From positions 1 through 50,701 of the forward strand of contig CALUTF010000011.1 of the NCBI GenBank assembly GCA_944323595.1: a stretch of DNA of 50,701 nucleotides, written 5' to 3'. The stretch comes from Candidatus Gastranaerophilales bacterium. GTDB lineage: Bacteria; Cyanobacteriota; Vampirovibrionia; Gastranaerophilales; Gastranaerophilaceae. Below, piece after piece: positions 1,374 to 7,006 of the stretch (the stretch's first letter is position 1; the number at the start of each line of letters is the position of its first letter). The position numbers and the translations under genes were made by a program. The notes beneath the pieces are model-generated. The model searched no databases. It had not been told where the DNA came from and saw nothing but the letters and a program-made list of their open reading frames with translations.

Positions 1374-2093
1374 ATGATAAAAAAGAAAGCGTTCACGTTA
1401 GCAGAGGTGTTGATAACTCTTGGTGTAATTGGAGTTGTTGCAGCTATGACATTGCCGATATTAATACAGAAATATAAGAGAGTTGTTGTAGAAACGCAGT
1501 TGCGGCGGGAGTATGCTTTAATTGCAAATGCCGTAAAATGGGCTGAGGTTGATAATGGTACCGGTTTTCAAATAGGAGCCGGAAATTTTGATGAAACGAA
1601 TGACGTAAACGGATTTGGCTATGAGCATAGTGAGGCTGTTTTTGAACAATATTTTAAAAAATATTTTAAAATTATATATACATATAACCGTAATGAAACT
1701 TCAGCAAAATTCAGGTATCAGGGACAAGAGGGCGGTTTACGTTCTATCAGTCATGCAAAATGTGTGAAGATTATTGATGGGACTGCACTTTGTTATATTG
1801 CTGCAGGAAACAGTGATACGATGGGATATTTTTATGTATTCCTTGAGCCTGAGAAAGAAGTAAAAATTGCAGGGCGTGATGTATTTTCTTTTGAATTTAA
1901 CCGGACAGGCGGAACATATAAGTTATATAGCCGATTAGATGATCATTATAACGAATCACAGCGCAATGAGGTCATAAATGCCTGCACTGCTCCGTCAGAA
2001 TACTGGGGGATTTGGCCGCGTCCGATGACTTGTACTTTTTTAATATGGAAAAATAATTTTAATATACCTGATGATTATCCAATAAAATTTTAG
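1374..2093 (+). CDS. Type IV pilin-like / type II secretion pseudopilin-like protein
   Basis: 239 residues. The N-terminus is a class III prepilin signal: basic MIKKKA, then FTLAEVLITLGVIGVVAAMTLP, with cleavage before Phe and the conserved Glu at mature position 5. After the hydrophobic helix comes a polar globular domain with a few cysteines (AKCVKI, TALCY, NACTAP, MTCTF). It stands alone, without pilus assembly genes, so it may be a minor pilin or an exported pseudopilin. An AAGGATA sequence upstream of ATG 1374 serves as ribosome binding site. Confidence 0.8.
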   Translation: MIKKKAFTLAEVLITLGVIGVVAAMTLPILIQKYKRVVVETQLRREYALIANAVKWAEVDNGTGFQIGAGNFDETNDVNGFGYEHSEAVFEQYFKKYFKIIYTYNRNETSAKFRYQGQEGGLRSISHAKCVKIIDGTALCYIAAGNSDTMGYFYVFLEPEKEVKIAGRDVFSFEFNRTGGTYKLYSRLDDHYNESQRNEVINACTAPSEYWGIWPRPMTCTFLIWKNNFNIPDDYPIKF

Positions 2094-2153: not shown

Positions 2154-2777
2154 TTATATGCATAACTTTTGATATTCACAGTACCGGCAGTTGTTTGTAT
2201 TTTGGGGGAATTCGGTTGAGTTCATTTTCTCCAGCACATCAGAGAGAATTTTTTCATATTCGGATTGTTTTTCTTTTGAAAATTCGATTATTTTATTCTC
2301 ATTATTTTTCAGGTCTATGTACACAAATTTTATGCAGGTTGTATTTAGAAGTTTTGATGCACAGTAGAGATAAATCATTGTCTGGTAGTCATATTCAGGG
2401 TTTTGCGGGATGGAACCTGTTTTGTAATCCAGAATATAGTACATGTTTTCATCCTGCATAAGCGCATCAAGCCGTCCTCCTATCCAGTAATTATTTATTT
2501 TCGCAGATAGTGTGTATTCAGATTTAACGAATTGCTTATTGAAAAATTCATTTGTTTTAAGCTTTTGCCAAATTTCAAAATCTGCCTGCGGCAGGGCTTT
2601 TTCAAGTTTTGTTATATCCGCACCCTGCAGATAGTAAGTGGCAAGTGCGTGGATTTTTTTTCCGCGTTCAAAGGCGGAAGCTTTCTGCGGCATCACAATT
2701 TTTTTTATATATTTATATTCAAACTTGCACGGGCAATCTGCAAAAGTTTTAATCATATATGGAGAAAAATCATTCAT
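2154..2777 (-). CDS. PD-(D/E)XK nuclease of RecB/Cas4 type with probable Fe-S staple
   Basis: About 207 residues. I start it at ATG 2777 because GGGAGGTG lies five bases upstream inside the preceding gene; the longer reading frame has no such site. Active-site motifs are visible: GGRLDAL (Asp), ILDYKTG (Asp-x-Lys) and QTMIY, the QxxxY motif of RecB nucleases. A Cys pair near the N-terminus (DCPC) and a C-terminal CRYCEYQKLC match the four-cysteine iron-sulfur staple of AddB and Cas4 nucleases. Start overlaps the helicase stop by eight bases, implying translational coupling and a shared complex. No cas genes are near, so a helicase-nuclease partner is the better reading. Confidence 0.8.
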   Translation of the reverse strand: MNDFSPYMIKTFADCPCKFEYKYIKKIVMPQKASAFERGKKIHALATYYLQGADITKLEKALPQADFEIWQKLKTNEFFNKQFVKSEYTLSAKINNYWIGGRLDALMQDENMYYILDYKTGSIPQNPEYDYQTMIYLYCASKLLNTTCIKFVYIDLKNNENKIIEFSKEKQSEYEKILSDVLEKMNSTEFPQNTNNCRYCEYQKLCI

Positions 2778-5700
2778 ATTGCACCTCCCGTAAAATATCA
2801 GAGAATATAATGCTTGGTTCCTGCTGAACAAGTTTTTCAAAAGATTTTGTTTTTGTACTGACGGTAAAGAACAATTTCTTTTTAGCTCTGGTTATGGCAA
2901 CGTATAAAAGCCTTAAATTTTCCGATATAAGCTCCTGCTTGAGGTCAAATTCCGTTTTGGGCTTATATTCTGGATTAAGCCTTCTTATATTTTCCATAAA
3001 ATCAGATGATTTCAATTTTATTTGTTCAAAATCCAGAGTCAGACTTTTTTCTGTCATCTCCGGAATAAATACATAGTCAAACTCATCCCCTTTTGATTTA
3101 TGAAGTGTCATAATCTGAACTTTGCCTTCTAAAAATTCACGGTTGGATTCGTCTTCTTCCGAAAAGAATTTAAACCCGCTCAACGACGGCTTTTTAGCTA
3201 ATTCTCCCAGCCTTTCTGATATATAAGTAAGATTTTTGTTTGTTACACTTATCCGTTTAATTAAGGTTGAAATCAGGTATACGTTGGATTTTTCAATTTC
3301 ACTTTTAAAATAATAACGACCTATTTTAATGGCAAGTTCTTCTGCAGTGAGGTACGGAAAAGAGAGCCAGTAAGTTAAATCCCAGTAGAATTGCTCAAGA
3401 TATTGATTATTTAAATCGTCGCAGTTCATCTGTACAAAAGGAATTTCAAATTTTCTTATTTCTGTTCCCATCCGTTGTTTATACAGTCCGAGTTCCGCCA
3501 GAATTTCATAGTTATCAGCAATTACATTATTGTCAAAAGGTGTTAAAATCATTTGGATGACAGCAAAAATCCCTTTAAATATAGATTTTTGTTCAAGGCA
3601 TTCGCTTCTGGTAATACTTTTCAGCCCGCTGTCATTTATAAAATTCTGCCACTGTGCAACCTGATAATTGTTTCTGAGTAGAATTCCGACAGTGGCTTTC
3701 GGGTCTTTTTCAAATGTATTTTTGATAACTTTTAGAATATAATTTCTTTCTTCAAAGTAGTTTTCGAATATTTTAGCGGTAATGGCATTTTTCTGAACCG
3801 GATTTTTGCCGTCAACAGGATGCATAAATATTTTGAAAAAAGCATTTCTTGTTTCGTCATTAGTTTCTGCCCAGTTAACGAGATTATTTGCCAGTTTCCA
3901 GACATCTTCCGTACATCTTTGGGAGCAATCCATACTGACGCTGTTGCTTTCTGAGATAAATTTTCTGAACCCCTCAACATCGGCGTTTGAAAAAGTTGTT
4001 GTGATTGCCTGATTAATATCTCCGCAGCGGATAAGGTTTTTGTGCTTAGCGCTCAAGAGGTTGATGAGCCGCTGCTGGATTGAAGATGAATCCTGTGCTT
4101 CGTCTTCAATAATATAATGACAGATTTCCTGATAGTGTTTTAGGATATCTTCGTTTTCTTCGAGGAGTTTTACTGATGAAATCAGCATGTCATCGTAATC
4201 AATGAGATTTGATTCACTCATTATTCTGCTGTATTCGTTAAAAAATTCAAAGAATTTTTTTAGTTTTGCATCCGCAATACCGGCGGGCTGAATTCCCTGT
4301 GAGATTTTGAAAACGGAAGCAGCTCTGTCAAATTCTTCGGTTTCTGTTTTTTTGAGTTTTAATTTGGCAGAAATTTCTTTAACTATTCTGGTTCTTTGTG
4401 AATCATCGCAAATTTCAAAATCAGAGGACAGCCCGAGTCGTTCAAAATTCCCGTTTTCTTTCAAAATCCTGAGCGCAAGCCCGTGGATGGTACTGATATT
4501 AGGAAGTTGAGATGAATTCTGGCGTATATTTTTTATTCTTTCTCTGAAATTTCTTGCAGCTGATTCCATATATGTCATAACAAATATATTTTCAGGGTTA
4601 ACGCCGCTGTCGAGAAGTTTTACTATCAATGCAAGCAGAATAGTTGTTTTTCCAGCCCCGGGGACTGCGGATATTGCCATTTTGCCGGATTTATATTCAA
4701 GTACCGGCATCTGGTCTTTACGCGGGGTAATTTTGAAAGTTTTTTCTTTCGGTAAGTCATTAATAATACATTCTTCTGCAATATAATTCTCAATCCCGCC
4801 GAGGTTTTCGACTCCGTTACCGTCAAAGAGGCTTGAAAGCGTATAAATATGTTCATCCGCACAGAGTGTCAGTTTTCGCAATATTCTTGCTGTTTTATCT
4901 TTGCCGAGCTCTAAATTGTCGTCGATGGTAAATTCATCTTTATGCCAGTCTTTCTGGAATACCCATGCGTTATACAGCGGTCCTGTGTCGCTTTTTATCC
5001 ACTCCGAACTTGATGTATCAAGCCAGAACTGGTATTTTGTCCGAACCTGATTATCTATAATTTTTTGCGGTGTTCCTATTATCAAATCACGTTCGGATAT
5101 TTCAAGCGTTGAATAAGGATTTTCCGCTATTATGGAATTTTCAATCTGGGTTATAATTTCTTGTTTTTTTGTGTCAAACTCGTCTTTGTAAATATTTTCA
5201 AAATCCTGAAGTTGTTTTATGAAAAAGTTGAATTTCTTTAAATCTTCCGGATTTATGTATGTAAAATCGCAGAGTTCAGTGAATATTTCATAAACCTGTT
5301 CTGATAACTTCAAATTGCACGTTTCAAGCTTGTTTTTCAGATGCAAAAGTTTTGAATATCTTTCGTTGTGCTCTTCAATCGGAAAGCTATATTCAATCAG
5401 AGTTTTATTGCCCGCAAAGTTTTCAAGAATATCCTTGCAGTATTTAACAGGTATCCCGAGAAAATCAGACAATACGACCCTTAAATCAAATTCCGTTAAA
5501 TCATTTTTGAGTTCGGAGGTGAGTTTTAGAATATTTAAAGATGCGAGAACAAGTTTATTTTGTATAAGTTTTTCACTACCTGAAAGGTAGACTATGTTCA
5601 AATTTTTTAGGTTTTCAGATAGTGTAAACTTTAGCATATCGTCAATGACAGGAGTAATCACTGAAATCTCGCAGGGCAGAATGTTTTTTCCGAGAAGTTC

Positions 5701-6636
5701 CTTGATTTTTTTTGTTGTTAAGTCTATCATTCCTGCACGCTTGGACGGTGAAAATACGGAAAAATGTTTGAGCGGAGTTTTTTTATCTTCTTTCACGTTA
5801 GAGAACAGAACTTCGGCATCATTTTCAAGGTTGGAAACTGTCTCAATTTCATTTACCGGTTGTTTAAACATATTTTCAAAGCCGAATACAGAGGTTTTGT
5901 CTGCGCTTAAATATCCTGAACGGCTGGCACCCTTGCGGTCAAAAGCAATAAAGACATCTTTCAGCTGCGGTGAGATATGTTTGATAAAATCCATTGCTGC
6001 CGGTGTGAGTTCGTCTGCATCATCTATAAAAAGATATTCAATGTTTTTGAAATAGTCAGTATTTTTGTATATATATTTGAAAACCAGAGTTTGTCTTAAA
6101 TAGTCAAAATCTCTCAATTGAAGAGTTTTTGCCAGAAATTTTTTTAAAGCGGCTTTTGCATCTTCGCCGAAACTTTCTTTTAGAATTTTTGTCCGCCATT
6201 CAATTTCATCATCATTGAGATTATTCTGGACTATCAGTGCGTATCTTCTGAAAAGCTGATGCAGTAATGATTTTTTTGAATTATACCCCTTGAATTTAAT
6301 ATCTTTGACAATATCTTTCATAATGAACTGTGAAACTTCCAGTCCTGCTAGATTTGGGAGTATTTCCGGATTTTGATACGGGTTAACATTTTCCAGTACC
6401 GCCCAGTTGTCAATTACCGCATTATAGACGAGCGAGAAAAAAGAATGGATTTCAAGTTTTTCGTGCGCATCAATATTCAACAGCTTTTGAACGCGTTGTG
6501 TAAAGTTTTCTTTCAAAGATGAATTCTGTACAAGTACAAGAATTTTTGAAGAACTTATATTTTCGTTCAAAAGTGCAGCGTAATTTTTAATAAGCAAATC
6601 GGTCTTTTTTGACGCTATAGAGCCGTTTATAAGCAA
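2770..6636 (-). CDS. Double SF1 helicase protein, AddB/AddA-like fusion without nuclease domain
   Basis: 1288 residues with two UvrD-type cores. The first half (about 1-600) keeps the layout but is degenerate: Walker A reads GSIASKKT (residues 5-12), Walker B reads FIDDAD (203-208), and a weak motif V-like stretch occurs near 518. The second half is complete: Walker A PGAGKTT (659-665), Walker B IIEDEAQD (842-849), motif V TLHKSKGDEFDYV and motif VI LLYVAITRAKKK near the C-terminus. An inactive core plus an active core recalls AddB plus AddA (or RecC plus RecB) joined in one chain, the nuclease being supplied by the overlapping next gene. Likely role: double-strand break processing, possibly also anti-phage. 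Start is TTG 6636, with AAAGGAGCGGG upstream; a minus TATAAT lies at 6691-6686. Confidence 0.8.
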   Translation of the reverse strand: MLINGSIASKKTDLLIKNYAALLNENISSSKILVLVQNSSLKENFTQRVQKLLNIDAHEKLEIHSFFSLVYNAVIDNWAVLENVNPYQNPEILPNLAGLEVSQFIMKDIVKDIKFKGYNSKKSLLHQLFRRYALIVQNNLNDDEIEWRTKILKESFGEDAKAALKKFLAKTLQLRDFDYLRQTLVFKYIYKNTDYFKNIEYLFIDDADELTPAAMDFIKHISPQLKDVFIAFDRKGASRSGYLSADKTSVFGFENMFKQPVNEIETVSNLENDAEVLFSNVKEDKKTPLKHFSVFSPSKRAGMIDLTTKKIKELLGKNILPCEISVITPVIDDMLKFTLSENLKNLNIVYLSGSEKLIQNKLVLASLNILKLTSELKNDLTEFDLRVVLSDFLGIPVKYCKDILENFAGNKTLIEYSFPIEEHNERYSKLLHLKNKLETCNLKLSEQVYEIFTELCDFTYINPEDLKKFNFFIKQLQDFENIYKDEFDTKKQEIITQIENSIIAENPYSTLEISERDLIIGTPQKIIDNQVRTKYQFWLDTSSSEWIKSDTGPLYNAWVFQKDWHKDEFTIDDNLELGKDKTARILRKLTLCADEHIYTLSSLFDGNGVENLGGIENYIAEECIINDLPKEKTFKITPRKDQMPVLEYKSGKMAISAVPGAGKTTILLALIVKLLDSGVNPENIFVMTYMESAARNFRERIKNIRQNSSQLPNISTIHGLALRILKENGNFERLGLSSDFEICDDSQRTRIVKEISAKLKLKKTETEEFDRAASVFKISQGIQPAGIADAKLKKFFEFFNEYSRIMSESNLIDYDDMLISSVKLLEENEDILKHYQEICHYIIEDEAQDSSSIQQRLINLLSAKHKNLIRCGDINQAITTTFSNADVEGFRKFISESNSVSMDCSQRCTEDVWKLANNLVNWAETNDETRNAFFKIFMHPVDGKNPVQKNAITAKIFENYFEERNYILKVIKNTFEKDPKATVGILLRNNYQVAQWQNFINDSGLKSITRSECLEQKSIFKGIFAVIQMILTPFDNNVIADNYEILAELGLYKQRMGTEIRKFEIPFVQMNCDDLNNQYLEQFYWDLTYWLSFPYLTAEELAIKIGRYYFKSEIEKSNVYLISTLIKRISVTNKNLTYISERLGELAKKPSLSGFKFFSEEDESNREFLEGKVQIMTLHKSKGDEFDYVFIPEMTEKSLTLDFEQIKLKSSDFMENIRRLNPEYKPKTEFDLKQELISENLRLLYVAITRAKKKLFFTVSTKTKSFEKLVQQEPSIIFSDILREVQYE

Positions 6637-6746: not shown

Positions 6747-6799
6747 TTAGCTATAAATTAAGGTTAATGTACTATTTAGACAAATTGCAGGAGGTTAAG

Positions 6800-7006
6800 A
6801 TGCAAGAATTACAAGAACAAATTGGTTTATCAGCAGGTCAAATTTATGATTATTTGAACAATAACGGGGAATCAACATTTGCTAAAATTAAAAAAGAATT
6901 AGATTTGAAAGGCAATTTTGCAGATTTAGGTCTCGGCTGGTTAGCTAGAGAAGACAAAGTAGCTATTTCTAAAAAAGGTTCTTCAGTTAACGTAAGACTT
7001 AAATAG
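6800..7006 (+). CDS. Winged helix-turn-helix protein, DUF2582-like
   Basis: 68 residues. ATG 6800 is chosen over an upstream ATG at 6767 because AGGAGG (6789-6794) is five bases before it. The sequence (EQIGLSAGQIYDYLNNNGES, then KIKKELDLKG and LGLGWLAREDKVAI) matches the small winged-helix family annotated as DUF2582, known from bacteria and archaea without a settled function. Probably a DNA- or nucleoid-binding factor. It has its own promoter and terminator. Confidence 0.75.
   Translation: MQELQEQIGLSAGQIYDYLNNNGESTFAKIKKELDLKGNFADLGLGWLAREDKVAISKKGSSVNVRLK

Follow-up and report, generated by a model that had tools for sequence, protein, structure and literature searches.

A protein with a degenerate and an intact SF1A helicase core in Gastranaerophilales, and its separately encoded relatives in the Cyanobacteriota

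The AddAB enzymes of the Bacillus subtilis type (PDB 3U44, 4CEJ) pair one live with one dead SF1 helicase core, carry a C-terminal nuclease domain on each of their two chains, and include a PD-(D/E)XK nuclease with a four-cysteine Fe-S site. The mycobacterial AdnAB enzymes (PDB 6PPJ, 6PPR) also have UvrD-like cores of which one is crippled, with a motor and a nuclease in each of two separate chains, and RecBCD assembles a dead core of the RecC type, a live 3'-5' motor fused to the one nuclease, and the second motor RecD. Dead cores have been described as strand scanners, and ATP binding at the second site, in AddB, modulates Chi recognition (PMC4824097). A further group, the UvrD-Cas4 fusions and UvrD/Cas4-like operons, combines a UvrD-type helicase with a Cas4-like nuclease of family PF12705, fused at the C-terminus in the main type; a dead core is absent from their description (Hudaiberdiev et al. 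2017, PMC5704561). A survey of 2005 argued that there must be presynaptic systems beyond those known (PMC1193525), and one of cyanobacteria in 2016 left room for repair genes yet to be identified (PMC5101192).

The locus described here lies in a stretch of 50,701 nucleotides from a Gastranaerophilales bacterium, the whole of which we refer to as the window. It shares with AddAB the combination of a live and a dead SF1 core and the Fe-S nuclease, but differs in that its 1288 aa helicase chain contains no PDDEXK domain, and in that the cores of this family are found either in one chain or as two genes that lack a nuclease, with a single nuclease encoded separately. That nuclease is not fused to the live motor as in RecBCD, and a second motor of the RecD kind lies outside the gene sets observed. 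Vestigial and active helicase cores are also joined in one chain in proteins of the TraI and Brr2 types, although these belong to other helicase groups (SF1B and SF2) and have unrelated roles. By analogy, the window probably holds the fused form of a phylum-wide DNA-end-processing helicase-nuclease that would act much like RecBCD or AddAB while being a member of neither.

The dual-core gene and its two halves

The features of the locus, with the evidence for each, are as follows.

2154..2777, minus strand: Cas4-like PD-(D/E)XK nuclease, 207 aa (PDDEXK_1, cas4 model, start context)
2770..6636, minus strand: dual-core SF1 gene (ORF call, two UvrD-helicase matches, full-length relatives)
4762..6636, minus strand: dead N-terminal SF1A core, residues 1-625 (AlphaFold, fold matches, separate-gene homologues)
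6601..6624, minus strand: degenerate Walker A of the dead core, GSIASKKT, residues 5-12 (alignments)
6010..6027, minus strand: altered motif II of the dead core, IDDADE, residues 204-209, catalytic Glu replaced (alignments)
2773..4740, minus strand: live C-terminal SF1A core, residues 633-1288 (Pfam, invariant motifs, tree)
4642..4662, minus strand: Walker A of the live core, PGAGKTT, residues 659-665 (alignment)
4090..4107, minus strand: motif II of the live core, EDEAQD, residues 844-849 (alignment)
2881..2904, minus strand: motif VI of the live core, YVAITRAK, residues 1245-1252 (alignment)

The dual-core gene starts at a TTG codon preceded by GGAG (6650-6647), and a divergent ORF of 79 aa upstream of it (6767-7006, plus strand) is similar to small winged-helix proteins. 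The first-pass annotation had read the gene as a single chain with a dead and a live SF1 core, and the ORF, the Pfam matches to both halves and the motifs all bear this out. The N-terminal half by itself exceeds the curated cut-off of the Pfam UvrD-helicase model (28.2 bits versus 23; E 1.1e-6), and the C-terminal half matches the same model with E values of about 1.1e-51 to 3.5e-50. Motifs I, II, III, V and VI of the live core are all present and are invariant across its relatives. In the N-terminal core of all relatives, motif II lacks the catalytic Glu (DDVDET, DDADE, DNVEE), the Gln of motif III and the Arg of motif VI are likewise missing, and other features are conserved in their place, namely GGxRRGYLNAYP at motif III and TPQKxID...WLDxSSxxW at motif V. 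The altered motifs remarked on in the first reading are thus real, since their conservation rules out sequencing errors, and judged by its motifs the N-terminal core is catalytically dead by descent. Its Walker A has had a different history: it is intact (GxxGSGKT) in the basal families of Vampirovibrionia, most Cyanobacteria and Salinibacter, and has decayed in the Gastranaerophilaceae, the window included, and in the tandem-operon lineages described below. The intact motif of the basal forms resembles that of AddB, in which Walker A is likewise kept. A sequencing or assembly artefact as the source of the fusion was considered and rejected, the same fusion being present in more than 150 genomes that form a single clade.

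The expectation that the N-terminal half folds as an SF1 core was upheld by an AlphaFold model of residues 1-625 (pLDDT 86, pTM 0.86), whose best whole-length matches among solved folds are UvrD/PcrA (Z about 29), AdnA/AdnB (24) and AddB (23). Searching the PDB with the dead core, as a single sequence or as a profile, gave no meaningful match; its relatives were reached by fold and profile comparisons only. In profile-profile comparisons the dead core can be aligned along its whole length with the live-core family (597 columns, E 1.4e-17), with PcrA at E 2e-10, and weakly with AddB over 430 columns (E 1e-6). When both cores were modelled together, using residues 1-1200 of a relative (L054), each core was predicted with confidence and their mutual arrangement was undefined (pTM 0.53). 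We regard the dead core as most likely the counterpart of AddB, RecC and AdnA.

The likeness of the dead core to AddB and AdnA in fold, together with the dead-then-live order that is generally known from addBA and adnAB operons, would be accommodated if the protein were a true AddAB or AdnAB whose subunits had fused and whose nuclease domains had been lost. The live core, however, scores only 96.5 bits with the addA_Gpos model (cut-off 707.65) and 70.1 bits with recB (cut-off 696.05), the recC model has no match in the window protein, and ADDB_N and addB (TIGR02773) match neither this protein nor the separate dead cores. In a tree the live-core family (28 rows) is set apart from PcrA, AddA and UvrD-Cas4 at 100/99, the nuclease is a gene of its own in every lineage with separate genes that was seen, and AddAB proper is found side by side with the fused gene in the same class. 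We therefore consider this explanation quite improbable. The original proposal of an AddB/AddA-like fusion holds for the dead core, which folds as expected of AddB and AdnA and is paired with a live SF1 motor as in AddAB, but not for the live core; the analogy was useful, yet the protein is not an AddAB.

The live core also falls short of the pcrA model (184.8 bits versus a cut-off of 911.2), which together with the pcrA/uvrD/rep equivalogs does not claim it, although its HMM scores are nearer to PcrA and Rep than to AddA. This could be taken to indicate a PcrA/Rep-like helicase of replication forks or mismatch repair, with a regulatory dead core and an incidental link to the nuclease. Against such a role, the live-core clade lies outside PcrA, the same genomes retain a normal PcrA (that of the source genome included), and the nuclease is co-inherited with the cores and shares operons with them; we judge it highly improbable.

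On the further point raised in the first reading, no ordinary AddAB or RecBCD was found among the SF1 and PDDEXK_1 matches of the source genome: its other SF1 matches are PcrA, an EndoQ-like/UvrD fusion and a UPF1-like helicase, and the window nuclease is its only PDDEXK_1 match. The fusion protein (979 aa; contig C6, L007 2362-5298) joins a complete UvrD helicase to an N-terminal part that, from its sequence, we take to be PHP/EndoQ-like, Pfam having matched the UvrD part only. The UPF1-like SF1 helicase (contig C45, L008 3849-6485) has a DUF2726/MTES_1575-like nuclease tail and lies beside a C5-cytosine methylase-like gene and a HipA-like gene, in a setting that resembles a defence island.

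The nuclease, the separate genes and a single fusion

The nuclease gene begins with an ATG at 2777, preceded by GGGAGG (2789-2784), and overlaps the end of the dual-core gene, stop codon included, by 8 nt; a type IV prepilin-like protein with an N_methyl motif is encoded convergently to it (1374-2090, plus strand). Its product matches PDDEXK_1 (PF12705) with E 1.1e-24 and scores 70.6 bits with the cas4 model, whose cut-off is 65. H43, D104, D117, K119, the QxxxY motif and Cys15, 197, 200 and 206 are invariant in the nuclease alignment, and the window protein retains all of the active-site residues and the Fe-S cysteines, in keeping with the four-cysteine nuclease of AddAB; the last cysteine is lost in several cyanobacterial members of the family. 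The nucleases of four Gastranaerophilaceae genera (g17, g18, g22 and g24) have lower scores and matches that end before the C-terminal cysteine region, and one of these nucleases (L194) is without the CxxC...C Fe-S motif.

Full-length relatives of the dual-core protein occur in nearly all Gastranaerophilales genomes, and three other families of the class Vampirovibrionia have them too. In many of them the nuclease gene follows the fused gene directly with overlapping frames, while in most others it lies elsewhere; it is non-adjacent in about half of the Vampirovibrionia loci sampled and absent from a few genomes. Several families of the class have the fused gene alongside AddA-like/AddAB-like or AdnAB-like pairs, showing that the two can coexist, and other families have ordinary AddAB. 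The dual-core gene is missing from a few Gastranaerophilaceae (G224, G226 and G136), which carry instead a UvrD-PDDEXK protein of 1019-1032 aa that is of the UvrD-Cas4 type (L120, L121, L122), and similar proteins of about 1000-1045 aa occur beside the dual core in other members of this family. In family f12 an 817 aa protein in the AddB position, upstream of an AddA-like gene, has a nuclease domain and an N-terminus with no recognisable helicase likeness (L110 200-2650), and a similar upstream ORF is present at a second locus (L111 3-2150); in genome G009 a RecJ-like ORF of 833 aa adjoins an AddA-like helicase of 1257 aa (L113 77-6342). Apparently broken copies were also seen, with the dead core split by a TAG codon (L177, G386) or into two ORFs (G361), or with two in-frame TGA codons in the live core (G351, G356), and these may be pseudogenes or errors.

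Outside this class the dead core is encoded by a gene of its own of 660-790 aa and the live core by another, mostly of 700-920 aa. Neither Pfam nor NCBIfam has a model that matches the separate dead cores of the Cyanobacteria. In several non-photosynthetic lineages (loci L155-L159, L234) the three genes form a tandem of dead core, live core and nuclease with overlapping frames, and at four of these loci (L157, L158, L159 and L234) the nuclease gene is adjoined by recJ, the gene for a 5'-3' ssDNA exonuclease; in the Cyanobacteria proper all three are present and dispersed. The fused live cores form one clade (100/99) and so do the fused dead cores (98), and as both trees agree a single fusion, within Vampirovibrionia, is sufficient. 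The suggestion that the nuclease had been moved out to another gene is correct in that it is separate, but since it is also a gene of its own in the separate-gene lineages the event was the joining of two helicase genes, with no sign that helicase and nuclease ever shared a chain in this lineage. The fusion of the two helicases in one clade is an argument for contact between their separate counterparts.

The gene set also extends beyond the phylum. On plasmid pSR56 of Salinibacter ruber M8 there is a contiguous array of dead core (313 bits; annotated as a hypothetical protein), live core (461 bits; ATP-dependent helicase), PD-(D/E)XK nuclease (161 bits) and RecJ. Ilyobacter polytropus has a homologue of the dead core with none of live core, nuclease or RecJ beside it, and searches of phages and of viral contigs, the latter by single-protein scan, found no relatives.

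Co-inheritance, RecC and transformation phenotypes

In a sample of 80 genomes of the phylum Cyanobacteriota outside Vampirovibrionia, the dead core, live core and nuclease were all present in 63, all absent from 12 and partially present in five, two of the five being fragmented assemblies. The exceptions include two genomes with dead core and nuclease and no live core (G355, G362) and one that lacks the nuclease (G322). The 12 genomes without the triad fall in three families, in one of which (f31) sister genera retain it, so the three genes were lost jointly more than once. RecC, scored as present at E below 1e-60, was found in 10 of these 12 and in two of the 68 genomes that have the dead core, although the corresponding Fisher p of 1e-8 to 1e-12 ignores shared ancestry and overstates independence, the complementarity being mainly that of one clade. 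The 10 constitute one entire family with genomes of 1.6-3.0 Mb, which would fit marine Prochlorococcus and Synechococcus; these are reported to have recBCD and model cyanobacteria to lack it (PMC5101192). Two genomes (G339, G372) have neither triad nor RecC. With this distribution, complementary to that of recC, the triad may be a stand-in for RecBCD in those cyanobacteria that are without it.

Genetic data are available from Synechococcus elongatus PCC 7942, in which loss of cas4, recJcy or a uvrD distinct from pcrA raises natural transformation and RSF1010 maintenance, as does loss of a further PD-(D/E)XK gene; the six hits named do not include the dead core (PMC10653904). All three parts of the triad were found in a genome identified by its plasmid (100% identity) as that of S. 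elongatus PCC 11801. It is likely but unproven that the published uvrD and cas4 belong to the live-core and nuclease families described here, as PCC 11801 encodes one more UvrD-like protein that is not PcrA and also a second PD-(D/E)XK nuclease of this type. The literature search turned up neither biochemical nor genetic work on the dead core.

The better uptake and retention of foreign DNA by the cas4, uvrD and recJcy mutants, the frequency of Cas4-like and UvrD proteins in defence islands (PMC5704561) and the copy on a Salinibacter plasmid are what would be expected of a module devoted mainly to defence, one that degrades plasmid or phage DNA on entry and takes no general part in repairing the chromosome. 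We think this unlikely, though worth bearing in mind, as the triad occurs almost throughout the Cyanobacteria, where its genes are dispersed and for the most part vertically inherited, unlike mobile defence islands, and swaps with RecC, a repair enzyme; PADLOC, moreover, gave generic GajB/Cas4 models only and no specific system.

A proposed DNA-end helicase-nuclease

The live and dead folds, shared operons, co-inheritance, complementarity with RecC, the fusion, the pSR56 array and the S. elongatus phenotypes lead us to propose that the triad acts as one system in processing DNA ends. The undefined arrangement of the two cores (pTM 0.53), the frequent non-adjacency of the nuclease and the coexistence with AddAB-like pairs count against this proposal. 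The live SF1A core would load onto the end of broken or linear DNA and unwind along one strand, with the 3' to 5' polarity expected of SF1A; the dead core would hold, split or scan a strand and dock the nuclease; and the separate Fe-S Cas4-like nuclease would cut the unwound strand. RecJ, encoded in the same operon in several lineages, could then complete removal of the 5' strand, giving resected ends for RecA and the destruction of incoming linear or stalled foreign DNA. From the known enzymes we infer the physical complex, the polarity, the end resection and any Chi-like scanning or control that this scheme may involve.

On balance we favour the broader proposal that dead core, live core, Cas4-like Fe-S nuclease and often RecJ make up a fourth, so far undescribed, type of bacterial helicase-nuclease for DNA ends. 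It would do the work of RecBCD in most cyanobacteria and in their relatives without photosynthesis; picocyanobacteria would have exchanged it for RecBCD, Vampirovibrionia have it in fused form, and outside the phylum it is present on a Salinibacter plasmid. No earlier description of such a three- to four-part system was found in the literature, subscription papers and preprints lying outside the search. Most cyanobacteria, the models included, are without RecBCD. For the resection of their breaks and the destruction of linear DNA that enters them, three candidate genes can now be named that are co-inherited and are missing from the clade that bears RecBCD, one of them encoding a protein of about 700 aa that has no family annotation. 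They would have a bearing on transformation efficiency in the engineering of cyanobacteria, and they suggest that a dead helicase partner recurs in another family of helicase-nucleases.
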